Assembly: GCA_007693585.1 (NCBI GenBank)
Contig: REDH01000094.1
Coordinates: 1 to 54,284, forward strand
Length of the DNA stretch: 54,284 nt
Direction: 5' to 3'
Source of the DNA: Deltaproteobacteria bacterium
Lineage (GTDB): Bacteria > Myxococcota_A > Bradymonadia > REDH01
This document shows, in pieces, positions 17,440-31,054 of this stretch; the stretch's first letter is position 1, and each line of letters starts with the position of its first letter. Below the pieces are notes generated by a model, which searched no databases, was not told the origin of the DNA, and saw only the letters and a list, made by a program, of their open reading frames with translations. The translations under genes and the position numbers were made by a program.

Positions 17440-17530
17440 GGGCGCGGGGTCGGGTCAGCGCCGTGCCGAGGTAGCACAGCGCCGAGTCGGCGCAGCGCCA
17501 GGTCGGCGCGGGGTCAGCGCAGCGCGGCGG
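17440..17530. repeat. Degenerate GC repeats at the 3' end of the M19-like gene
   Basis: Between two convergent stops are imperfect copies of a motif close to GGCGCTGCGCTGACC (minus strand), the last of which is the actual gene end with its TGA. This resembles the clearer 3'-end duplications at 31.9, 46.1 and 51.7 kb, but is more decayed. Confidence 0.45.
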
Positions 17531-19874
17531 CGCGCTCCTCGGCGCGCTCCCACATGCGGAGGTATGCTTCGGCGGAGCGGAAGAGAGGCTCGATGTCCTC
17601 GTCGCTCATGCCGTCGCGGCGGAGCTCCTCGATGAGCTCGGGGAGGAGCCCGATGTGGATCATGCCCTCGGTGTTGAAATCGACCTCGCGGTTGCCGAGC
17701 TGGGGCTGGGTGAACTCGATGTCGCCGTCGAAGGAGGCGAAGGGGTAGGTGATGGGGTTGGGCTGGGGCTGGGGGCAGGAGGAGAGCTCGCCGAAGCGGG
17801 GCTGTCTTCCGCCGGCGAAGCCGTTCATGTCGAAGGAGAAGCCCGCTGCGGGGTAGAGGCCGCGGTCCCGCAGGAGCTGCACGCGGTTGCGGATGCCGTT
17901 GCCGAGGGTGTCGGGCTGATCGGGGTCGGCGCAGCGGCCGACGCTGACGCGGCCGTGTCCGCCGATGTCGAAGAGGCGGCCGTTGTAGGTGTCGCCGTGG
18001 GTGGAGCTGGCGGGGTAGTCGGCGGCCTCGAGCATATCGAGGGCCTCGATGACGGCGTGCTGGGGGATGTGTGCGATGTCGATGATCATGCCGCGTTCGA
18101 TGATGCCCTCGATGAGGGCTCGCCCCAGGGCGGTCAGCCCGTGCTGCTGGCAGTAGTTGCCGCGGATCGGCGGTTCCTGGAGGCGGGAGAGGAGCGGCAG
18201 GAGGGCGACGATGGGGTTGTCGCGGAAGCCGAACATGTTGAGTGGTGCGAGCATGTTGTACTCCTCGCGGGGCTCGTTGAGGCCGCCGAAGAGGACGTCG
18301 CCGCTGTCGAAGACGTGCTGATCGAAGGGGCAGTCGTCGACGAAGTTGGAGTAGTGGCCGGTGTTGATGAGGTTGCCGAGCTCGATGATGCCCCGGTGGC
18401 CGTCTCCGGGGGAGAAGGCGTTGTCGTACTTGTGGACGGGGAAGATCACGCGGACCCCGCGCGCGTGGTAGTCGTCGAGGGCGGTGAAGACGTCTTCCGG
18501 GGTGCAGGGTTCGAAGCCCGGAGGCGGGTTCAGGAAGCAGTCGAAGAGGTTGGAGGTCTCGATGCCGAGGACGACCGCGAGGCGGCCGCTGCGGATGACC
18601 TCGCGCGCTTCGGCGGGGGACTCGACGATGCGGAACCAGCCCTCGCCGGGGCCGCCATGCTGCGCGTCGATGTAGCGCTCCATCTCGCGCGCGGCCTCCA
18701 TGGCGCGATCGACCCCGACCATGTCGCTGCAGTCGTAGAGCGTCCCCTGGGCGCGGATGCCGACCATGAAGTCGCAGAGGACGGAGTTGCCGGTGGCGAG
18801 CTCCACGACGAGGCGCAGGCCGCCCTTCCAGGCGCGCTCGAGCCAGCGGTAGTACTGCATCTGGTGCGTGGCGCGCTGCCAGGAGCTGGGCCACTCGACG
18901 AACTCGGGGTAGCCCTCGGTGTGGTGGTTGAAGTCCGGCGTCCGTCCCGAGGCGATGATGGGCAGCATGCTGTCCACGTCGAGGTCCTGATCGCCATCGA
19001 AGAAGAAACCGATGATGTCGCGGCGGCCGTCCTCACCATGGGTATGATCGCAGTCGGGCAGTGCGTGCTCGACGCCCAGCCGATGATAGGGGGCTCCGTG
19101 GAACATGCCGCCGCCTCCGAAGCCCTTGTTGGTGAGCAGGTGCGAGTGCGCGTCCACGATGCCGAACACGTCACCGTCGTCCCACTCGCGGGGCACGACC
19201 TCCCCGATGGCGTCGACGGTGAGCTCGGGGAACTCGACGCAGCCATCGGCGGGCACGAGGGTGATGCGCGCGGCGCCCTCGGCCTCCGCGGCGAGGCCGT
19301 CGAGGCTCAGGTAGAGGTCGACGGAACCGTTGCGAAGCTGGAGCCGGCTGGGGTCCACCTCGCCCAGCGCGAGGTCCCACTCTCCGGTGGAGCGGTGGCG
19401 GTCGATGCGGAGCGTCTCGGCGGACTGGAGGGCCGCCTCGCGGCCGAGGACCCACTCCGGATCCGGTGGCGGTCCGCTGTCCGCGTCGGAGCCGTCCTCG
19501 ACGGCGGCGGCATCGCGCGCCGTGAGAAAGTGCCGGCCCGTGTCGTACAGCAGATACGTGCCGAGGTCGGCGGCGCGGAACAGGAAGGGGGTGGCGGCCT
19601 CGGGCGTCTCCGCCGTGAAGGCAAACGCGACCCCGTCGGTCTCCACGAGGTAGGCGACGCGGTCGTCCGCGTCCTCGCCCTGAAGGACGAAGCAGCCGTT
19701 CGCAGCTTCGTACACGGTCTCCTGCGGCAGCGGTGGCGGGCGCTCGGTGCTGGACTCCGGGTCGCTCGTGCCGGAGTCCGCGTCCTTGTCGCCGTCATCG
19801 CTGCACGCGGCGAGCGTCAGCGCGAGAAAGAGGGAGAGTACAAGGAGAGAAACGGGGGAACTCGACTGCGTCAC
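17514..19874 (-). CDS. Amidohydrolase / M19 dipeptidase-like lipoprotein
   Basis: A 786-residue lipoprotein: signal peptide to C24 (LAAC), then SDDGDKDADS and a short Ser/Pro tether. An N-terminal beta domain (about 45-230) precedes a TIM-barrel-type metallohydrolase region. This opens with VDAHSHL (D241, H243, H245, likely metal ligands) and continues with RVIFPVHKYDN, MIIDIAHIPQHAV and YPASSTHGDTYNG. These segments resemble the metal-site order of renal dipeptidase (M19) and related amidohydrolases. The substrate is unknown. The GTG start at 19874 has a GGGAG site. It is the gene downstream of the 2839-residue gene, separated by 342 bases and a strong hairpin, so probably transcribed separately. 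Confidence 0.78.
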   Translation of the reverse strand: MTQSSSPVSLLVLSLFLALTLAACSDDGDKDADSGTSDPESSTERPPPLPQETVYEAANGCFVLQGEDADDRVAYLVETDGVAFAFTAETPEAATPFLFRAADLGTYLLYDTGRHFLTARDAAAVEDGSDADSGPPPDPEWVLGREAALQSAETLRIDRHRSTGEWDLALGEVDPSRLQLRNGSVDLYLSLDGLAAEAEGAARITLVPADGCVEFPELTVDAIGEVVPREWDDGDVFGIVDAHSHLLTNKGFGGGGMFHGAPYHRLGVEHALPDCDHTHGEDGRRDIIGFFFDGDQDLDVDSMLPIIASGRTPDFNHHTEGYPEFVEWPSSWQRATHQMQYYRWLERAWKGGLRLVVELATGNSVLCDFMVGIRAQGTLYDCSDMVGVDRAMEAAREMERYIDAQHGGPGEGWFRIVESPAEAREVIRSGRLAVVLGIETSNLFDCFLNPPPGFEPCTPEDVFTALDDYHARGVRVIFPVHKYDNAFSPGDGHRGIIELGNLINTGHYSNFVDDCPFDQHVFDSGDVLFGGLNEPREEYNMLAPLNMFGFRDNPIVALLPLLSRLQEPPIRGNYCQQHGLTALGRALIEGIIERGMIIDIAHIPQHAVIEALDMLEAADYPASSTHGDTYNGRLFDIGGHGRVSVGRCADPDQPDTLGNGIRNRVQLLRDRGLYPAAGFSFDMNGFAGGRQPRFGELSSCPQPQPNPITYPFASFDGDIEFTQPQLGNREVDFNTEGMIHIGLLPELIEELRRDGMSDEDIEPLFRSAEAYLRMWERAEERAAALR

Positions 19875-20180: not shown

Positions 20181-20217
20181 ACGCCTGCACGCCCGGCGTC
20201 GCCGGGCGTGCAGGCGT
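20181..20217 (-). terminator. Perfect 37-base palindrome at the end of the giant gene
   Basis: Two 18-base arms, ACGCCTGCACGCCCGGCG and its exact complement, are separated by a single T. The right arm ends on the last base of the giant gene's stop codon. The hairpin would be extremely stable and is the best terminator candidate in the window. No T tract follows. Confidence 0.6.
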
Positions 20218-23200
20218 CAGCCGTTCGCCGTTCCGTGGGCGGTCGGGCGCCCTGCGCTGCGCCTGCGCAGAACCGCGACTCCGGCCAGGATCGCGAGCAG
20301 CAGGGGGAGGGTACCTCGCCCGGGCCGGGCCCCGGAGGCGGCGCAGCCGATGTCGTCGTCGCCGCCCACGATGACGGGACGGCAGTCGCAGGCTCCGCAG
20401 CGCAGCCCGGGTGTGAAGACCGCGGCATCGGAGAGGGCGGCGCATGCGTCGGCGTCGAGGCGATCGTGGCATTCGCCGGTGGCCATGTCGCAGCAGGCGC
20501 CGCGCTCGGGGAGCTGCTGGCACACCCCGGCGGCGCAGCCGCCGGCGTCCACGAAGGTGCCGCCCAGGGAGGCGCAGAAGGACGGGCGAACGTCCTCGAA
20601 GCACCCCACCGGGGCGCAGCAGTCGCCGGCCTCGGGCGCGCAGCTGTTGACGTCCTCGCAGGTGCGGTCCGGGTACCACGTGCCTCCGGCGGCTGCGCAG
20701 CGGCGCGCGTCGACGCCCTCTTCGGTGCAGGTGCCCGGCAGCTCGCCACAGCAGGCTCCCGCCTCGGTGGCGGGGCAGTCGATGCGATCATTGCAGCGCA
20801 TGCCGTCGTTGAACACGCCACCCCGCAGACTGCACTCGGTCGCCTGCAGCCCGTCCACGCACTCGAACGCGGTGCAGCAGGCCCCGCGGCGGAGATCGGC
20901 GCAGGGATCATCGGGACTCTGGCAGGTCGAGTCGGTGAGTTCGGTCCCGGGACAGCCGTCGAGCAGCGTCTCCACGCAGGTGCCCGCCGCCGGGGGCTGC
21001 ATGAGCCGAATGATGCTTCCGGTACCGTCACCGAGGTTCCAGCACGTGACGCCCCCGCCTTCCAGAACACCACAGGTACGTCCCTGATCGCTGTCCGCCC
21101 GTTCGGGAGGCATCCCTCGGAGCAGCCGATCGGGCTGTTCCACCGGCCCGATGCAATCGAGTGCTCCCTCCGGTGTGCGTCCGCACACGGTGCACTCGAA
21201 CGGGGCGAACAGGCTTCCCGGGCGGAGGATGCCGTTGGCCGCCTCGCAACCCGCGTCCCCATCCGGCACACAGGTGACGGTCTCGCCGTGGACGGCGCAC
21301 ACCAGGCCGTGCGCGGCGAAGACCTCCTGACCCGGGATCGCCTCGAGCGGAAGGGCCGTGAGCGGACGCGGCCGGAACGGGGGCAGGGGTCCGGAGAACG
21401 CTCGCCGCACGAGGTAGGGCAGGATGGTGCCGTCAGGCTCGACGCCGTAGAGGAAGTTCCCTGTCGGATCGAGGGCGATGTCCGTCAGGATCCGGTCGTC
21501 GAGCTCGCCCTGAGTCAGCACACTCCCCGCCCTTCCCCAGCAGGTGAGCGAGCCGTCCTCATCGAGGGTGCATGCCCGGGTCGGTGACATCGCGAGATGC
21601 GTGACCCGGTCCGGGGGGGCCAGCTCGGGAACCCTGCCGGGGCCGAAGCAGGTGACGACCCCACGGGCTTCCACCGCGCACGCCCACTCGCCGGCGGCAG
21701 CGATCGCCGTCATGACCCCGGGTGGAGTCCGGATGGAAGCGTTGCCGGTCTCATCGAAGCACGCGACGACGCCCCCTTCGCTCAGGGCACAGGCAAAGCC
21801 GTCGCCCGTGGCCACGTCCCCCCAGACCCCACCGACGCAGCACGAAGTGCGCAGCCGGCCTTCCGGGCAGGCCCCACAGGTGCCGCGGGGCAACCAGGTC
21901 CCCACGAGGGCTTCGCACTCCCGCTCCGTTCTCGCGGCGGCGCAGCCCCCCACCTCCATGCAGCAGGCACCGACCTCGGGGATGGTCGGACAGCTCGCCG
22001 CCACGTCGCACGGGGTGCCTTCGTGCCAGGCTCCGTCGTACATGTCACACACGAATTCGGGAACGTCCGGGAAGCAACCGGCAGCGACGCAGCACGCGCC
22101 GGTGCTGGCATCCTTGGGCATGGTCGCGTCCTGTCCGAGAACAACCGCGACCGCCTCCCCGCACAGGGGCAGCGCTGCGGGACCGGTGGCGACATCTCCG
22201 GGCTCGCCCGCGCAGGCCCCGGTGAGCGCAGCGGCGAGGCCCGCGAGCACAGCGACGACCGCGAGGCGACGCCGGCGGCGCACGGCCAGCAGGCCGAGCA
22301 GCAGGATCATCCAGGTGAGCGGTCGGGCCGGCGCGCCCGCGGCGGCGCACCCCCCGTCCCCGGAGCCGAGATCGATCCGTGCGGGCGCGCACAGGCACTG
22401 CTCGCACGGCAGCCCGGGGTTGAAGGTGCCCTCGTGCTCCTCGGTGCACATGCGCTCGGTGATCGCCTCCACGCAGAAGCCATCCGGGCGGCAGCACCCG
22501 CCGAGGGTCTCGTCCACCATGCCGGGGCAGATGGCCGGGCTGCAGGAAGCGCCGGGGGTGTACGTTCCGCCCACGGCGGCACAGTCCTCCTGATGCTCCA
22601 CCTGCATGCACCCGGTGACCTCGCCGATCGATGTGCAGCACGCCCCGCCCGGGACGCCGAAGTCCGGGTCATCCCCGCCCGGGCGGGGGCGGCGATCCGG
22701 CGCGTCCGGACACTCCTGGACCTCACCGGGAAGCTGCACCCGCACCGGCGAGCACTGCAGCGGCGTGGATCCGGAGACGCAGATGTTCCGGCCGACGACG
22801 GAGCGGTAGGCGTCGCTGCAGACCGCGTCGGGATCCATCGCCGTGCAGTCGCTGTTCCGGGTGCACGAGCACACGTGCTCCGCGACGCGGCTGGAACGCT
22901 CGTCCATGCAGCTCGTGAAGCGGGAATGCCACCGGAGCCCGATGTTCCGGCTCAGCAAGGCGATGGCCGAAAAGTCTGCGCGCTGTTCCGGCATGGGATC
23001 GGCGATGCCCGTGGACCCCGGGTAGTAGAGGAACGCGAAGGTCGTGCCCATGTCCCCGAAGCTGAACGGCTCCGCCCCGTGCCGGCCGTCGTGGTAGATG
23101 CGCCGGATGTCCATGATGCGCCGATCCGGATCGAAGAGCCCGGGGCGAAGAAGCTGCCACCGCAGCCTGTGATCGGGCACCGACGGGTTCAGGAGCCGGT

Positions 23201-26200
23201 TGGTGAGCATGGTCGTGGTCAACCGCCGGTTCGGAGGCAGGTCGGGATAGAGGGTCAGGGCGAAGCCCTCTTCGGTGAGGCGACGCAGGTGCTCGGGATT
23301 GCGATCGAGGGCACGGATGCTCGCGTCCAGCATCGTGGAGTCCTCGCTGCCGGAGGGCGCGATCTCCATGCAGCCCCAGATCTCGCCGAGGGCCTCGATG
23401 ATCTGCCCGCAGGGGAACAGGCAGTCGCTCCCCGAGCATCGATCCGTGTGACGCCCGCGGTACTCGCAGGTCAGAACATCGAGGTTCGGCACGAGATTGG
23501 GGGTACCATCGAAGAGGACGGGCGGGCCCTCGCCCTGCACGAACATGGAACCCAGGAACTCCTCGAGGGGCTCGTCGCCGACGCAGAGTTCGGTGGTCTG
23601 CCAGTAGTCCAGCACGAGGTCGTACGTGAAGCTCGCAGTGTCCACGATGCTGCCGGTGAGCTGTTCGTTGGTGCTCTCCCGGATGTCGGGCTCGCGCTCG
23701 TCGGGCATGACGCCGGCGCACCAGTCGAGGAACTCCCCGACGGAACGACCGGTGTTGCCGATGGGGACGTTGGCCGGCGCCGGCGAGGACCCATCATCCT
23801 CGAGGTCGCCCCGGTACCGGCAGACGCCCGACTCACCTGCGCACAGGCGGCCGTCGCGAAGACCGGTGGCCCCGAGCGCTGCATTCGCCGCATCGGCGAT
23901 GCCGCCGGTCGTGGTGCCGAACGGCTGGTAGTTCGTGATCGGCGAGAACGACGGGTCGAAGAGGTGCGCGTCGCTGCCCGCAGCTCCCTCTCGCGTCTGA
24001 CCGTCATGACACTCGTGGTGGTACCGGGCCTCGAGGCCCGGCTGGTACCAGGCCTGCATGTTGGATGCGAGATCGATCACATCGTCGAGGTCCAGGATGT
24101 TCAGCGGGTTGCGCAGGAACCGCACCTTCAGATCCAGGGTGAGGCCCAGTCCCAGCGTCACAAGCTGTTCGAAACTCGCCAACGCGTAGCTGGTGATGGC
24201 GTGCGCCGGGTACTGGCTGTCCGCATCACGAACGAACTGGGCGACCTCCTCCGTGAACACGGTGTTCGCGCCGCGGGGGCGGCAGACGGGTACCCGCTCC
24301 GCCCCGAGGAACGCCGGCGGGAACGTGCAGACTCGGTCGGTTCCGCAGTCGTCGTCGGTCCCGCAGGGGATGAGACACGCCCCGGCCACGGCGACACGAC
24401 CCGCGGGACACGGCCCGGGCGACGCGGAACACGAGAAGGTGCTGCCCCGGGTGCCCTCCGGCCCGGTCACGCAGTGCCCGATCGGCATCTGCTCCCCGGT
24501 GGTCGGGTGCTCGTCGGGCCGACAGCGCTCCCCCTCGGCGCAGTCCGCATCCGCCGCGCATCCGCAGGCGCTGGGGAAGCCGCCCTGCAGCGGGTGGCAC
24601 CCCGCACCCGTCCAGCCGAGCACGATCTCGTCGTGACTCCGCGCGTCGCGCTCGCAGTGGTACGGCACGAAGGCTGCCCCCACGAACCGGTCCACCTGGC
24701 ACTCCCACGCCGTCAGCCCGTGATGAACGCGGCCATCGGCCAACAGGCAGTATCCGTGCGCGCTGCACGGGATCGCGCCCGCGACCAGGCTGCTCAGGCC
24801 CCGGGCAACGAGATCCGCTTCCGGCGTCCCGAACCCGTCGTCGCGCGCGTTGCACGACTCGTTCGACCAGCGGGCTTCGAGCTGCGGCGGCATCTGCTGC
24901 ATCTGCTCGGGTCCGAGCAGGAGCAGCAGCTCGCGCACGGGCGCCAGCACGTCGAGCGTCTCCAGCCGTCGCGCCACGGCCTCGGGACCGAAGCGGCTGT
25001 CCGCCAGCAGCTCCTCCAGCGCCTCGCAGCTCGACCGGTCGAACCCGGTCCACCCGTCGACACAGGCCGTCTGGCTGAGCGCATCGCCCAGCACCGTCAC
25101 GGTGATGCCGCAGGACCCGGTCGGCATCTCCTCCACCTCACACGCGTAGTCCTGCTCGAATCCGGTATAGCCGCCCGGTGGCCGGCAGATGCCCTCCTCG
25201 CACCGGCCGAACGGGCAGGGGTTTGTTCGGTCACAGCCGGGCATGCACCATCCGCCGCCGTCATCCCCACCCCGCGCACAGTACCGGCCCGCCGGGCAGT
25301 CCTCGTTCGTGGCGCACGCGCCCCAGGTGCTGCTGGAGCAGCTCCGGGAGGATCGTGTCGACAGGACCGGCTCGCAGGTGGCGTCCCCGTCGGGGTTCGT
25401 GTGGCGCATCAGCTCGGCGAGCGCGACATTGGCGTCGAGCACCCCGCCCCAGCCGCCGGCCTTGAGTGTCAATTCGAGCTTCATGCTGGCACCGAGGATG
25501 ACCTCGATCAGGCGGGCCCCGATCGTCAGGTTCAGGTCCGCCTTGATGAACGGACCAAGCCTCACCGCGGTCATGTTGTCCGCGCTGACGTCCGGCGCCT
25601 GCATGGCGTGCATGTCCCGCGCGAAGTCCTCCGGCCAGGTCAGGCCGTCGTCCCGGAAGTCCTCCGGCAGGTTCGCATCCTGGGCGGCCAGAAACGCGTC
25701 CATGAACGCGTTGAACTGGTGCTTCCACTCCACCCCGAAGGAGAAGCCCAGGCTCGGTTGCAGGGTGACGTCCACGGTCCCCGTGCTGAACAGGAGAATG
25801 GGGGGCAGTTCCCAGCTCTCCGAAATCTCGAAGTCCAGATTCAGCCCGAACGACGCCACGGCCACGGACCGCTGCTCCCACTCCGGAACCTCGCGCCACG
25901 TGCCGCCCAGATTGAGGCCGGCGGGGAGTCGGGGCCAGAGCGTGTTGGCCGCGTCGTCCGGATCGCCGGCGCCGCCGCTCCCCGGGGCCCAGTCCGCGGG
26001 GCGAACGGGATAGAGGTTGCGCACGAGCTGAAGGCTGCCGCTCTCCACCTGGTCCCGCAGGGCCGACCCGCCGCCGTCGGGCATGTAGGCCAGCGCCCCC
26101 ACGTTGTCCGCGAGATCATCGAACGCGCCCGCCCCTGCGCCCAGGGGGAGCCCGAAGGGCCGCAGGGGATTCCACGGCTTGAACCCGTCCACCTGCATGT

Positions 26201-28736
26201 TGATCTCCACCGCGGGCATCAGGCTCAGGTCCAGCCCCCCGGCGGAGACGGCGAAGCCCCCCGACCGGAACTGCAGCCGCTGCGCGCGGCTCAGGTTGTG
26301 GGAACCGAAACGCCCCCCCACCGCGAACGCACGGCGCTCGTCGTCGGCGCCTTCCCCATCCGCCCGACCCCCGAAGGTCGCCATCGGCCCGTGGCCGGCC
26401 CAGCCGATGCACATGTGCAGATCCGGACGCAGCTCGCTGTAGGCCCCGAGATGATACCCGCTGGCGAACTCGTCGATGTACCGGAAGGCATCCCCGAAGA
26501 AGTCCGCGATGGCGGTGACCACGTCGGCGATGTCCCCGATCGCCTCCGCGAGCTGCTCCACCTCCTCCCCGAGATCCCCGAGCAGCGATCCGAGCCCCTC
26601 GTCCACGATGAAGGACACGACCTGGTCGAGGAACCCGATCTGCTCGAGGAAGAACAGCCCCTGCGCGAGCCCGCTCTCCACCGGGCGCTCGGCGTAGTCC
26701 ACCGCCGCCCAGAACCACACCCCGTCATAGTGTTCCTCGCAGTAGGCATTGCAGCCGCATCGGCTCTGCTGCGACAGGCACCGGAGCGCGGCGAAGTCAC
26801 GACCATCGCTCGCCAGCCCCACCTCGAACAGCGACCGGAACCGCTGTCCCATCCGTTCGAAGATGTTCTCGAATTCCGATGGCAGCCCCTCGAAGACCGC
26901 CCGCAGATTCGCCTCCACCGCATCCACCAGCGCCGTCGCCCGGTTGAACTGCTCCTCCACCCGCGCTCGCACCTGCCCCGGAAGCCCGACCTCGCTCATC
27001 ACGTCCAGAGACAGGAGCTGGCAGAGGAAGCTGGAGTCCACGAGCACCTCGCCTTCCTCGTCCTCCAGCGCAGGAATCCGGCAGTTCTCCATCGACAGGG
27101 AACCCTCGGGCACGCTGTCCCGCACGGCGATGGCGCACGCCTCCGCCTCCTCGAACAGTGCACGACCGGCATCCCGGCTGTCCCGGGCCAGGGCAACGAA
27201 TGCGTTCGCCAGCTCCCGCGTCGCCGTCAGCCCCTCGCCCAGACGGCCACTGAGCGAAGCGAACCGCGCACCGATGCCCTGCACCGTCTCGATGCCATCG
27301 ATCACCGACGCCACATCGGCACCCAGCTCGACCACCGCGTCGATGAGCGCGTCCCACTGGACCTGCGCAAGGGACTCGATGTCCCGCACCTCGGCGAAGA
27401 ACTGCCGCAGCTCCCACGCCCGCTCGAGGATGCTGACCACCGTGGACACCAGCTCCCGCAGATCCCGCACCGCGGCCTCCTCGAGATCGCCAACGAACGC
27501 GCCCCACTCGGTCACCAGCTCCACCAACTCCTCGTCGACGCCGTCGACCAGCTCGAGGAACGCGTCGACCTGCGCCTGCAGATCGCTGACCCGCGCCGGC
27601 AAGCCCTCGCAGGCCTCCACGGCCTCGACCGCTCCCTCGGTCAGCCAGTCCTCCAGCGCGCTCGCGTAGGTCTCCGCCGCCACTTCCACCGACGCCGCCC
27701 AGCCCCGCGCGATCCGCAGGATGTCCAGGGGCAGCGCCAGCGGCGCCTCGAGCGCCTCCGGGGCATCGGGGTCCTCGACCCACGGCGCCGCCCAGGCCCC
27801 CAGGATCTCCGGGCGCAGATCCGTGTTCAGCCAGGACGGACCGGGAACCATCTCCGGACCCACTTCCACACCCAGCAGCGCCAGGATCCAGGCCAGCGCG
27901 GGCCGAAGACCCACCGCCTCGCGAAGACCGTCGCCGTCCACCACCCCGTCCAGCGCTTCCTGCACCTGCCGCTGCGCCGTCTCCAGCACGTCCCCGGGCA
28001 CCCCCTCCGACAGCTCCGACAGCAGCGTGTCCAGCAGGTCATCCAGCAGCTCCTGGGTCCACGCCAGCAACGCCTCGGGAGACGCCTCCTCCGGCAGGCA
28101 CGCGTTCCGGCGACGGTCCTCGGGACCGGTCCCGCACACGCACAGGCCGCTCACGTCGTCGAAGGCCGCACACGTGTCCAGTGACGCCGTCAACCGACGC
28201 GCGAACGCCGAGGGCGACGGGCTCGACATCTGCTCCGAGAACGACGTCAGCGTGGAGGCCAGCAGGGCGAGACTGTCCAGCACGAGGAAGTTGTTCGAGA
28301 TGTAGTCCCAGTCCGGCGCCCGCGTGGTGCTCGCCGCCGTGATCGGTTCCGCCTCCTTGCTGTAGTCGACCGTGACCTCGCGACCGTCGAAGTGGGGGCC
28401 CTCGATCACCCGGCTCCACGTGGGGCGCTCCCGCTCCGGGTCGAAGGACTGGCCCCAGCCGTCCCGCATCGCCACCGGCGGCCGATCCGGATCCGGCGAC
28501 GGAACGAACGCCGCGCAGTACCCCGCCTCCACCTCGTTCTCGAAGTCGTAGTGCGACGTCGCGGTCGCCTGGTGACGCACCGCCGTGCCGGGGTCGTCCA
28601 CCGTCTCCGCGCAGCCCGCCACGACGACCAGGGCGATCAGGGATACCCACCCGAACCCTCCTCCGCGCGGTACGACGCGTGCGGAAGGGGTCCGGTGAAG
28701 CGGGCGGCATGCTGCAACGACATCGGCACGGAACAT
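20217..28736 (-). CDS. Giant Cys-rich lipoprotein; apparent in-frame fusion of two secreted proteins
   Basis: A 2839-residue protein. The signal peptide ends at C42 (VVVAGC). Residues about 100-700 are mainly helical and partly coiled-coil-like. A beta/mixed region follows, with a Cys-rich knot near 1130-1190. Two GACC-type Cys modules (about 2030-2115) come before GC at 2129-2130, a hydrophobic helix and RRRRR: a MYXO-CTERM-like tail, but internal. Immediately after it come a second hydrophobic stretch and a lipobox (LTGAC, C2175). Then follow two GACC modules, RCC1-like repeats (about 2307-2572), four more GACC modules, and a final MYXO-CTERM-like tail (GC at 2797-2798, helix, RRR). ATG 28736 has a GAGGAAAG site. 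The function is unknown; a surface or adhesive role is inferred. Confidence 0.8.
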   Translation of the reverse strand: MFRADVVAACRPLHRTPSARVVPRGGGFGWVSLIALVVVAGCAETVDDPGTAVRHQATATSHYDFENEVEAGYCAAFVPSPDPDRPPVAMRDGWGQSFDPERERPTWSRVIEGPHFDGREVTVDYSKEAEPITAASTTRAPDWDYISNNFLVLDSLALLASTLTSFSEQMSSPSPSAFARRLTASLDTCAAFDDVSGLCVCGTGPEDRRRNACLPEEASPEALLAWTQELLDDLLDTLLSELSEGVPGDVLETAQRQVQEALDGVVDGDGLREAVGLRPALAWILALLGVEVGPEMVPGPSWLNTDLRPEILGAWAAPWVEDPDAPEALEAPLALPLDILRIARGWAASVEVAAETYASALEDWLTEGAVEAVEACEGLPARVSDLQAQVDAFLELVDGVDEELVELVTEWGAFVGDLEEAAVRDLRELVSTVVSILERAWELRQFFAEVRDIESLAQVQWDALIDAVVELGADVASVIDGIETVQGIGARFASLSGRLGEGLTATRELANAFVALARDSRDAGRALFEEAEACAIAVRDSVPEGSLSMENCRIPALEDEEGEVLVDSSFLCQLLSLDVMSEVGLPGQVRARVEEQFNRATALVDAVEANLRAVFEGLPSEFENIFERMGQRFRSLFEVGLASDGRDFAALRCLSQQSRCGCNAYCEEHYDGVWFWAAVDYAERPVESGLAQGLFFLEQIGFLDQVVSFIVDEGLGSLLGDLGEEVEQLAEAIGDIADVVTAIADFFGDAFRYIDEFASGYHLGAYSELRPDLHMCIGWAGHGPMATFGGRADGEGADDERRAFAVGGRFGSHNLSRAQRLQFRSGGFAVSAGGLDLSLMPAVEINMQVDGFKPWNPLRPFGLPLGAGAGAFDDLADNVGALAYMPDGGGSALRDQVESGSLQLVRNLYPVRPADWAPGSGGAGDPDDAANTLWPRLPAGLNLGGTWREVPEWEQRSVAVASFGLNLDFEISESWELPPILLFSTGTVDVTLQPSLGFSFGVEWKHQFNAFMDAFLAAQDANLPEDFRDDGLTWPEDFARDMHAMQAPDVSADNMTAVRLGPFIKADLNLTIGARLIEVILGASMKLELTLKAGGWGGVLDANVALAELMRHTNPDGDATCEPVLSTRSSRSCSSSTWGACATNEDCPAGRYCARGGDDGGGWCMPGCDRTNPCPFGRCEEGICRPPGGYTGFEQDYACEVEEMPTGSCGITVTVLGDALSQTACVDGWTGFDRSSCEALEELLADSRFGPEAVARRLETLDVLAPVRELLLLLGPEQMQQMPPQLEARWSNESCNARDDGFGTPEADLVARGLSSLVAGAIPCSAHGYCLLADGRVHHGLTAWECQVDRFVGAAFVPYHCERDARSHDEIVLGWTGAGCHPLQGGFPSACGCAADADCAEGERCRPDEHPTTGEQMPIGHCVTGPEGTRGSTFSCSASPGPCPAGRVAVAGACLIPCGTDDDCGTDRVCTFPPAFLGAERVPVCRPRGANTVFTEEVAQFVRDADSQYPAHAITSYALASFEQLVTLGLGLTLDLKVRFLRNPLNILDLDDVIDLASNMQAWYQPGLEARYHHECHDGQTREGAAGSDAHLFDPSFSPITNYQPFGTTTGGIADAANAALGATGLRDGRLCAGESGVCRYRGDLEDDGSSPAPANVPIGNTGRSVGEFLDWCAGVMPDEREPDIRESTNEQLTGSIVDTASFTYDLVLDYWQTTELCVGDEPLEEFLGSMFVQGEGPPVLFDGTPNLVPNLDVLTCEYRGRHTDRCSGSDCLFPCGQIIEALGEIWGCMEIAPSGSEDSTMLDASIRALDRNPEHLRRLTEEGFALTLYPDLPPNRRLTTTMLTNRLLNPSVPDHRLRWQLLRPGLFDPDRRIMDIRRIYHDGRHGAEPFSFGDMGTTFAFLYYPGSTGIADPMPEQRADFSAIALLSRNIGLRWHSRFTSCMDERSSRVAEHVCSCTRNSDCTAMDPDAVCSDAYRSVVGRNICVSGSTPLQCSPVRVQLPGEVQECPDAPDRRPRPGGDDPDFGVPGGACCTSIGEVTGCMQVEHQEDCAAVGGTYTPGASCSPAICPGMVDETLGGCCRPDGFCVEAITERMCTEEHEGTFNPGLPCEQCLCAPARIDLGSGDGGCAAAGAPARPLTWMILLLGLLAVRRRRRLAVVAVLAGLAAALTGACAGEPGDVATGPAALPLCGEAVAVVLGQDATMPKDASTGACCVAAGCFPDVPEFVCDMYDGAWHEGTPCDVAASCPTIPEVGACCMEVGGCAAARTERECEALVGTWLPRGTCGACPEGRLRTSCCVGGVWGDVATGDGFACALSEGGVVACFDETGNASIRTPPGVMTAIAAAGEWACAVEARGVVTCFGPGRVPELAPPDRVTHLAMSPTRACTLDEDGSLTCWGRAGSVLTQGELDDRILTDIALDPTGNFLYGVEPDGTILPYLVRRAFSGPLPPFRPRPLTALPLEAIPGQEVFAAHGLVCAVHGETVTCVPDGDAGCEAANGILRPGSLFAPFECTVCGRTPEGALDCIGPVEQPDRLLRGMPPERADSDQGRTCGVLEGGGVTCWNLGDGTGSIIRLMQPPAAGTCVETLLDGCPGTELTDSTCQSPDDPCADLRRGACCTAFECVDGLQATECSLRGGVFNDGMRCNDRIDCPATEAGACCGELPGTCTEEGVDARRCAAAGGTWYPDRTCEDVNSCAPEAGDCCAPVGCFEDVRPSFCASLGGTFVDAGGCAAGVCQQLPERGACCDMATGECHDRLDADACAALSDAAVFTPGLRCGACDCRPVIVGGDDDIGCAASGARPGRGTLPLLLAILAGVAVLRRRSAGRPTAHGTANG

Positions 28737-28817
28737 GGGCTTTCCTCGACGCGCGGGGTGCTGTGGTCTGGTCCGCAGTGGACACCACGCAGCGCCGCTT
28801 GGCAAGCCCGTTTCCCG

Positions 28818-29942
28818 TCAGGCCGCCTGCGGCTCGGCACCCTGCGGGGCACCGGAATCCCACGTCGGCCGACCGGCTCGACCACCGGGCAGGGACAGCC
28901 GCACGATGTTCCGCGCCACGCTCCAGAGCTGACGCGGCAGGGAGCCGGTGTTGTACGCCTGCCCGTACCGTTCGCAGATCTCCCGCATCCGCATGGACAT
29001 GGTGGGATATCGATGCGCCGGAATGTCCGGGAAGAGGTGGTGCTCGATCTGGTGGCTGAGGTGACCGCTCAGGATGTGCATCCAGCGCGGCCCGTCGAAG
29101 TTCACCGACCCGTTGAGCTGACGCAGATACCAGCCCCCGCGGGTCTCGCGCTCCAGCGTCTCCTCCTCGAAGAACGCCACCCCGTCCGGGAAGTGCCCGC
29201 AGAAGATGACCGAGAACGCCCAGACGTTGCGCGTGCCGTTGGCGAGCAGGTTGCCCAGCAGGACGCGCGGCGCGTTCCAGAACGCAAGGACCGGGTAGAA
29301 CACGTAGTCCTTGCCGATCTGCCACCCGGCCTTGCGCAGGAACGGCGACCACCGCGCCCACTTCGATCCGAGCGGCTCCTGCCGGGCCTCCGGGTCCAGA
29401 GGACGCAGGTCATGCATCCCCACCCCCCACTGGAACAGCGCCGCGAGCGCCAACGCGCTGAGCGGCTGCACCAGATGACCCGGCCGCCACGGCTGCTCCG
29501 CCGTCACCCGCAGAAGGTCGTACCCGATGTCCCGATCCTTGCCGAGAATGTTGGTGTACGTGTGGTGCTCGACGTTGTGATAGTGCCGCCAGTTGTCCCC
29601 CGTACACACGTTGTCCCACTCGTAGCGCAGACCCTGGAGCTCCGGATCGCCCGTCCAGTCGTACTGCCCATGCATGACATTGTGGCCGATCTCCATGTTC
29701 TCCAGGATCTTGGCCAGCGCCAGCGCCCCGGCACCTCCGACGAACGTCAGCGGGCCGAAGCCAAAGGCCAGCAACAGGCGACCGGCCGCCTCGGAACGAC
29801 GTTGCAGCCGCATCATCCCGCGAATGTGGTCGACATCCGCCTGACCCAGATCCGCGAGGACCTCGGCCCGAAGGGCATCCACCTCGGCCCCGAAGGCCTC
29901 GATCTCGTCAGCAGTGAGCGGTCTGGATTCAACGGCGTTCAT
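28818..29942 (-). CDS. Membrane fatty-acid desaturase
   Basis: A 374-residue membrane di-iron enzyme that inserts a cis double bond into an acyl chain (acyl-CoA or lipid-bound). The three His boxes are all present: HNVMH (87-91), HNVEHH (122-127), and HLSHQIEHH (294-302). The HQIEHH form is typical of front-end and DesB-like desaturases. Several hydrophobic stretches separate the boxes. The start ATG at 29942 overlaps the stop of the upstream reductase (ATGA), so the reductase and desaturase are co-translated, which fits direct electron supply. The order reductase-desaturase with a divergent TetR gene matches desCB/desT of Pseudomonas aeruginosa. The frame is open further upstream but only inside the reductase gene. 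Confidence 0.92.
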   Translation of the reverse strand: MNAVESRPLTADEIEAFGAEVDALRAEVLADLGQADVDHIRGMMRLQRRSEAAGRLLLAFGFGPLTFVGGAGALALAKILENMEIGHNVMHGQYDWTGDPELQGLRYEWDNVCTGDNWRHYHNVEHHTYTNILGKDRDIGYDLLRVTAEQPWRPGHLVQPLSALALAALFQWGVGMHDLRPLDPEARQEPLGSKWARWSPFLRKAGWQIGKDYVFYPVLAFWNAPRVLLGNLLANGTRNVWAFSVIFCGHFPDGVAFFEEETLERETRGGWYLRQLNGSVNFDGPRWMHILSGHLSHQIEHHLFPDIPAHRYPTMSMRMREICERYGQAYNTGSLPRQLWSVARNIVRLSLPGGRAGRPTWDSGAPQGAEPQAA

Positions 29943-31054
29943 GGCCTCTCCGGGGTCAGGTCGAGTTCGAGATCGGTGCGGGGCACCGACACGCAGAGCG
30001 AGATGTCCTCGTCCGGTCCGTCCGAGACGGCGCCCGTGCGAATGTCCTCCACGACGCCGCGCGACTTGCGACACGTACACGTGCGGCAGATGCCCATGCG
30101 GCATCCGTTCCGCGGGGACAGGCCCGCCTGCTCGAGCTGCTCGAGAAGCGTGCCCTGGCCGGACAGCGTCACCGCGGCGCCGTCCGGCAGCGTCACCCGC
30201 ACCGCTGCCCCCGGCCGCGGTACGGGAACCTCCATCCGGAAGGTCTCCCGGTGCAGCGGACGGCTCGGCTGGACACCGTCCCACCACGCCTGCACGGCAT
30301 CCATCAGCCCCGCGGGGCCACACAGGTAGACATCCCGTGCCGCCGCGTCCGGCACGAGGCCCGCCACGTGCGCAGGGTCGAACCGGCCGGGTCCCCCAGG
30401 ATCGTCGTCCCGCAACACATGCACCCGCAGACCGGGATGGCACGCCTGCAGCGACGCAAGCCGCGACCGGCCGATGACATCCTCGGCACTCCGCACGTGG
30501 TCCAGCACGACAGCATCCGCCAGCCCGCCACGCGCCGCGAGATCATCGAGCATGGACAGGATCGGCGTGATGCCGCTGCCCCCCGCGATGAAGAGCAGCG
30601 GACGGCTCACCCGAACCGGGGCCACGAAGTCCCCCCCGACCCCCTCGAGCCCGATGACGTCCCCCTCCCGGATGTGGTCGTGCAGAAAACCGGACACCCG
30701 GCCGCCGGGAACCCGCTTCACCGTGATCGTCGGATGCGCCGCACCCGGGGCCGAAGAGAGCGAGTAGCACCGCCGCACCCGCACGCCGTCGATCTCCACC
30801 GCGACCGTCACGTGCTGACCCGCCCGATGGCCGGTCCACCGCGCGTTGGGGGCGAGCACGAAGGTGCGCGTGTCGTGCGTCTCGTCGACGATCCGGACGA
30901 CACGGGCCCGCGTCTCCCGCAGGGACGCCGTTGGCGTGAGGTCCCGCAACCACCCCTCGAGCTGACGGTCCAGGAACCACCGGCGCAGCGCCGATCGCCA
31001 GACGGGACGAAGCGCGACCGGGCCGGAAGGAATGCGGGCAATACTCGTTGTCAC
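29939..31054 (-). CDS. Flavin/2Fe-2S reductase supplying the desaturase
   Basis: A 371-residue electron-transfer protein of the ferredoxin-NADP-reductase family with a C-terminal ferredoxin. FAD binding is marked by RCYSLSSAP (R95-P103), NAD(P)H binding by GGSGITP (158-164) and YLCGPAGLMD (243-252). A plant-type 2Fe-2S centre is formed by C318, C323, C326 and C354. It should move electrons from NAD(P)H through FAD and the iron-sulfur centre to the adjacent desaturase, as DesC does for DesB. The start is GTG at 31054. The promoter region contains the inverted repeat at 31112-31131, shared with the divergent regulator. Confidence 0.92.
   Translation of the reverse strand: MTTSIARIPSGPVALRPVWRSALRRWFLDRQLEGWLRDLTPTASLRETRARVVRIVDETHDTRTFVLAPNARWTGHRAGQHVTVAVEIDGVRVRRCYSLSSAPGAAHPTITVKRVPGGRVSGFLHDHIREGDVIGLEGVGGDFVAPVRVSRPLLFIAGGSGITPILSMLDDLAARGGLADAVVLDHVRSAEDVIGRSRLASLQACHPGLRVHVLRDDDPGGPGRFDPAHVAGLVPDAAARDVYLCGPAGLMDAVQAWWDGVQPSRPLHRETFRMEVPVPRPGAAVRVTLPDGAAVTLSGQGTLLEQLEQAGLSPRNGCRMGICRTCTCRKSRGVVEDIRTGAVSDGPDEDISLCVSVPRTDLELDLTPERP

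Follow-up and report, generated by a model that had tools for sequence, protein, structure and literature searches.

The window, a stretch of 54,284 nucleotides of contig REDH01000094.1 from a member of the Bradymonadia related to Lujinxingia, encodes on its reverse strand a protein in which the plan of an exported, sorted protein appears twice (Table 1). By reading of the sequence, the frame was free of stop codons from 20217 to 28805, and we kept the start chosen in the first-pass annotation, an ATG with GAGG a few bases upstream at good spacing. The parts follow in the order lipobox signal, body, MYXO-CTERM tail, lipobox signal, body, MYXO-CTERM tail. The first-pass annotation had described export signal, body and sorting tail repeated twice, with a GC-helix-RRR tail at the true C terminus and, at residues of about 2129-2175, an internal tail side by side with a second lipobox in one uninterrupted frame. 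All of this was seen in the ORF, and its coordinates and residue numbers proved exact.

Table 1. Features of the putative polyprotein gene in the window.
Feature	Position	Strand	Basis
Putative two-module surface polyprotein ORF, 2839 aa	20217-28736	-	ATG 28736 to TGA 20217-20219
First signal peptide, lipobox VAGC	28614-28736; putative lipid Cys codon 28611-28613	-	Sequence
First body	22356-28613	-	Homologues: same-genome paralogue (37-38%) and proteins of five further genomes in the class
Internal MYXO-CTERM tail GGCAAAGAPARPLTWMILLLGLLAVRRRRR: Cys motif, transmembrane helix, RRRRR	22266-22355	-	TIGR03901
Second signal peptide RRRRRLAVVAVLAGLAAALTGA, then C; lipobox LTGAC	22215-22280; Cys codon 22212-22214	-	Sequence
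Second body: GACC Cys modules flanking a weak RCC1-like match (about 20994-21830)	20352-22211	-	Pfam, sequence
Terminal MYXO-CTERM-like tail IGCAASGARPGRGTLPLLLAILAGVAVLRRR: Cys motif, helix, RRR, then 13 residues	20220-20351	-	Sequence

MYXO-CTERM tails are C-terminal sorting signals processed by myxosortase. As is usual for proteins recognized by the tail model TIGR03901, the window protein begins with a signal peptide, the lipobox cysteine of which is residue 65 of the frame. Cysteine-rich GACC modules form the end of the first body, just ahead of the internal tail, and this tail scored 27.6 bits in the genome search (cut-off 20) and 19.3 bits, just below the same cut-off, in a scan of the whole protein. 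The C-terminal position that is also a feature of TIGR03901 tails was found in the second copy but not in the internal one, after which a further 682 residues follow. The second signal, RRRRR-LAVVAVLAGLAAALTGA followed by C, has the positive n-region, hydrophobic core and lipobox cysteine of a lipoprotein signal, but lies within the chain rather than at its N terminus. The five arginines do double duty, closing the first protein's tail and supplying the positive n-region for the signal that follows.

The last cysteine module of the second half, together with the terminal tail, was homologous to the module and tail that precede the joint (43 of 130 residues identical, E = 3e-12). Given these homologous end modules and tails, the probable ancestor of the second protein is a sister surface protein that ended in the same module. 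Between 20217 and 22645, where the modules before the two tails are homologous, a duplication of module plus tail is possible. Pfam returned only the weak RCC1-like match for the window protein. Two AlphaFold models, one for the second half (single sequence, pLDDT 41.6) and one for a conserved part of the first half (seven sequences, pLDDT 39.5), were of too low confidence for use. In other genomes, most homologues of the first body had no tail; in one genome (G022) a single protein joined a first-body homologue to GACC modules and one terminal tail. Read by eye, the neighbouring genes on the same strand would encode an amidohydrolase-like lipoprotein (17514-19874) and a fatty acid desaturase with ferredoxin reductase (28818-31054), with no sign of an operon between either and the polyprotein gene.

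Third-position G+C was high (0.77-0.91) along the whole frame, including the junction. By one fixed rule, the rate of lipobox-like sites within the bodies of these proteins was about 0.01 per 45 residues, as against 32 of 40 junctions. A paralogue of the window gene, with a first body 37-38% identical, was found in the same genome, split over contigs C215 and C59 (L021, L022). The break falls inside a GGGS repeat, and the second contig carries the same joint (GGGGCSAAGSGTPPVWAFGLLLLLALRRRARALTAVVASAFVLAAC), after which come a second body rich in GACC and a terminal tail. The shared repeat and complementary halves suggest that the two contigs adjoin; the paralogue is probably a single ORF, at least about 3500 aa long. 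Between the two genes the joint has been kept at 37-43% identity. The first-pass annotation had named a stop codon or frameshift near 22250 as grounds for refutation; no signature of either was found in the frame, and the 37% identical paralogue has the same joint.

Searching with TIGR03901 yielded 30 MYXO-CTERM tails in the genome that carries the window gene, 24 terminal and six internal, and a second signal peptide directly followed all six of the internal ones. The genes concerned were the window gene, its paralogue, three members of a further family, here called family B (one on contig C189 and two in tandem on C220), and a gene on contig C99 (L071, 2328-5981). This last gene encodes, in one frame, a matrixin metalloprotease, a MYXO-CTERM tail, a signal-peptidase-I-like signal and a SpoIID domain. 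The survey was extended to five further genomes with TIGR03901 as the only tail model, and internal tails made up 6 of 30, 1 of 27, 2 of 23, 3 of 30 and 1 of 18 tails, the last in a genome outside the class. Summed over the six genomes, 19 of 158 tails were internal, where only the best 30 matches were read in genomes with more than 30; one additional match lacking the cysteine was left out of the internal count. A signal peptide came next in every case (19/19), of the lipobox type in 12 and signal-peptidase-I-like in seven. The same design was present in two single-contig genomes (G047 and G036), and a lipobox-type joint was present outside the class in G063. ORFs of more than 5100 aa with a MYXO-CTERM tail and then a lipobox signal were also seen in G036 (L184, C1 near 2404442) and G024 (L320, C33 near 67776).

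A profile built from the six joints of the source genome recovered many more. When forty joints from 24 genomes were grouped by their halves (BLAST, E 1e-5), the first halves made up about 12 unrelated groups and the second halves 14; because they were collected with a joint profile, this set is biased to fused forms. The pairs included matrixin with SpoIID, TSP3 repeats with OmpA and MopE repeats with OmpA, the OmpA second halves occurring in fusions in G047 and G035; further partners were an amidase and proteins with FG-GAP, ASPIC/UnbV, FGE-sulfatase or weak cytochrome c matches. An ORF of 3056 aa with FG-GAP/cadherin-like modules (L119, G047:C1:4104000-4116000) has two internal joints and thus three modules in one chain. 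A candidate for a joint interrupted by a stop codon (G039:C338) was rejected, since no second signal peptide lies downstream and the tail is thus an ordinary terminal one.

To avoid the bias of the joint profile, family B was searched for with a whole-length profile and was found in 35 of 45 genomes of the class. The copies read comprised 46 fused ORFs, with both halves in one frame, and four split pairs. Comparison with homologues had been proposed in the first-pass annotation as a check on whether the halves are separate genes elsewhere; run on family B, which has the same joint, it gave overwhelmingly one gene. The tail cysteine, the arginine cluster and the lipobox cysteine were all kept in every fused ORF (46/46); a scripted rule recovered 45 of the lipoboxes and 42 of the tail cysteines, and the rest were seen by eye in the sequences. 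The distance from the first arginine to the lipobox cysteine was 15-29 residues in most fused joints, the normal length of a signal peptide. The first gene of each split pair (L197-L200) ends straight after the arginines and the second opens with its own methionine and a lipobox, the two overlapping by ATGA in three of the four pairs and standing apart by a short spacer in the fourth. On a tree of second halves, made without an outgroup, the split copies were nested among fused relatives and at least three changes were needed; with such nesting, splitting appears to be derived.

With an assembly of 223 contigs, one might suspect that the fused frame comes from faulty sequencing or assembly, or from a stop and a start codon lost recently by accident. 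As a general account this is refuted by the paralogue, by the five other such joints in the genome (the paralogue counted) and by the single-contig genomes with the same design, and fused family B genes are conserved throughout the class; we regard it as extremely improbable. Two readings had been offered in the first-pass annotation, a true polyprotein or two genes joined by loss of a stop and a start. The first is the better supported; the second, as a recent accident, did not hold up, because the joint is old, conserved and recurrent. The two readings are in fact one object at different times. The tail and signal placed back to back look like a real polyprotein design that bacteria have reused, rather than a slip of sequencing.

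A second protein could also arise by translation from its own start inside the joint, the fused frame being then mainly an overlap of two genes. The window offers a GTG (22283-22281), 23 codons ahead of the lipobox cysteine, that would yield MRRRRRLAVVAVLAGLAAALTGAC, a perfect signal; this GTG, however, has no Shine-Dalgarno sequence. Moreover, no ATG, GTG or TTG was found in the stretch that would need to hold a start in 10 of 45 fused family B joints, both copies on C220 among them, and the C99 joint likewise contains no start codon. With so many start-less joints internal initiation cannot be the rule; we rejected it as a general account and consider it very unlikely as the source of the second protein.

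The myxosortase found in the genome is a CPBP protease on contig C139, which matched the MrtP model NF040674 at 326.3 bits against a cut-off of 250. Its identification as MrtX was rejected, the MrtX model NF040593 remaining below its cut-off everywhere searched. In M. xanthus, conserved cysteines were shown experimentally to be needed for cleavage of TraA by MrtX, and lipidation ahead of the myxosortase cut has been proposed (Guo, Haft and Wall 2025, PMC11980579).

From the observed anatomy, conservation, recurrence, split forms and MrtP, we infer a topology, two cleavages, lipidation and surface display as follows. The first lipobox signal would direct export of the chain via Sec until the internal MYXO-CTERM helix stopped transfer, leaving the arginine cluster in the cytoplasm; the second signal peptide would then resume transfer, carrying the second body across. 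A hairpin would be the natural topology of the joint, since a MYXO-CTERM helix is oriented with its arginines inside and a signal peptide needs its arginines inside and its lipobox outside. MrtP would cut at the tail cysteine, freeing the first protein, and prolipoprotein diacylglyceryl transferase (Lgt) and signal peptidase II would lipidate and cut the second lipobox, freeing the second; the short hairpin of helix, arginines and helix would be thrown away. Should both signals function here as they do in other proteins, the two products would be lipidated at the cysteines expected, and those of the window gene would each end up with a lipidated cysteine at both ends. The outcome would be two separately anchored surface proteins, co-exported one-to-one. 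A point against this scheme is that Lgt and signal peptidase II normally meet an N-terminal signal, although it is plausible that they would process a signal preceded by another helix. As far as sequence can indicate, the window gene probably encodes a secreted polyprotein that crosses the membrane as a hairpin, its two helices sharing one cytoplasmic arginine loop, and that myxosortase and lipoprotein signal peptidase cut apart.

Alternatively, the chain might be exported whole and left uncut, or be cut at one site, its bodies staying joined by the membrane hairpin. Helix, arginine loop and helix would by themselves form a stable two-pass anchor, and both signals could be conserved even if a single cut occurs. 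We nevertheless think this unlikely: the tail and lipobox cysteines persist in all 46 fused family B proteins, the split copies give two products with the same ends, MrtP is present, and the lasting retention of two cleavage motifs would be hard to explain if they were not used.

Bacterial polyproteins cut in the membrane are, to our knowledge, very rare. FbcH of Bradyrhizobium, a cytochrome b/c1 polyprotein, resembles the proposed two-cut polyprotein in being a bacterial chain with an internal signal peptide as the site of cleavage, but it differs in its single signal peptidase I cut, its respiratory subunits and its lack of a C-terminal sorting tag. Flavivirus structural polyproteins have junctions in which a stop-transfer helix is followed by a signal sequence and which are cut in the membrane; the abutting elements are alike by analogy only, with no homology, and the viral junctions belong to a eukaryotic host and its signal peptidase complex. 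Our literature search found nothing on an internal lipobox, a signal-peptidase-cut bacterial polyprotein, lipo-invert or MYXO-CTERM in Bradymonadales. The lipo-invert tail model NF058595, which may describe a similar layout of helix, arginines, helix and lipobox, was rejected as the identity of the joint (11.2 bits against a curated cut-off of 37); it was also unspecific, with matches in 11 of 14 control genomes.

With the MYXO-CTERM/myxosortase system (TIGR03901; MrtX, MrtC, MrtP) the window gene shares the anatomy of the tail and its genome shares MrtP, but here one tail lies inside the chain, directly against another signal peptide. An internal MYXO-CTERM was described in MXAN_5598 of M. 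xanthus by Guo, Haft and Wall (2025, PMC11980579), who called it rare and atypical and suggested that genes had fused and that the N-terminal part is processed. Both genes are single ORFs with an internal MYXO-CTERM and a body on either side. The second part of MXAN_5598, however, is an outer membrane beta-barrel with OmpA, whereas that of the window gene starts with a lipobox and ends with a second tail, and no OmpA match was found in it. What is new relative to that one rare case is a common design, found in many genes and genomes, class-wide and partly phylum-wide, whose forms include lipoprotein second halves, two tails, three modules and natural split counterparts. The MYXO-CTERM surface protein TraA and its exported partner TraB are encoded by overlapping genes in M. 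xanthus (PMC11980579). These resemble the ATGA-overlapped split pairs of family B, but they are two ORFs, with an outer membrane barrel with OmpA as the partner, whereas the window gene is a single ORF.

We lean towards a still broader reading, that Myxococcota generally use tail/signal hairpins and two unrelated membrane proteases to make two or three separately anchored surface proteins in a fixed ratio from one translation product. If so, polyproteins would be in routine use for surface proteins in one bacterial class and probably in more of the phylum, and annotation pipelines would miscount surface proteins, entering one protein for two products and missing tails that are not terminal. 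Naturally occurring fused and split pairs would then put directly to the test the reasons for which cells make surface partners together, and the joint would be a clean substrate for learning if an internal signal is accepted by Lgt and signal peptidase II, and which acts first, these enzymes or myxosortase. A carrier of the design in the same class, Lujinxingia vulgaris TMQ2 (G021), has been cultured, making the idea testable in culture.
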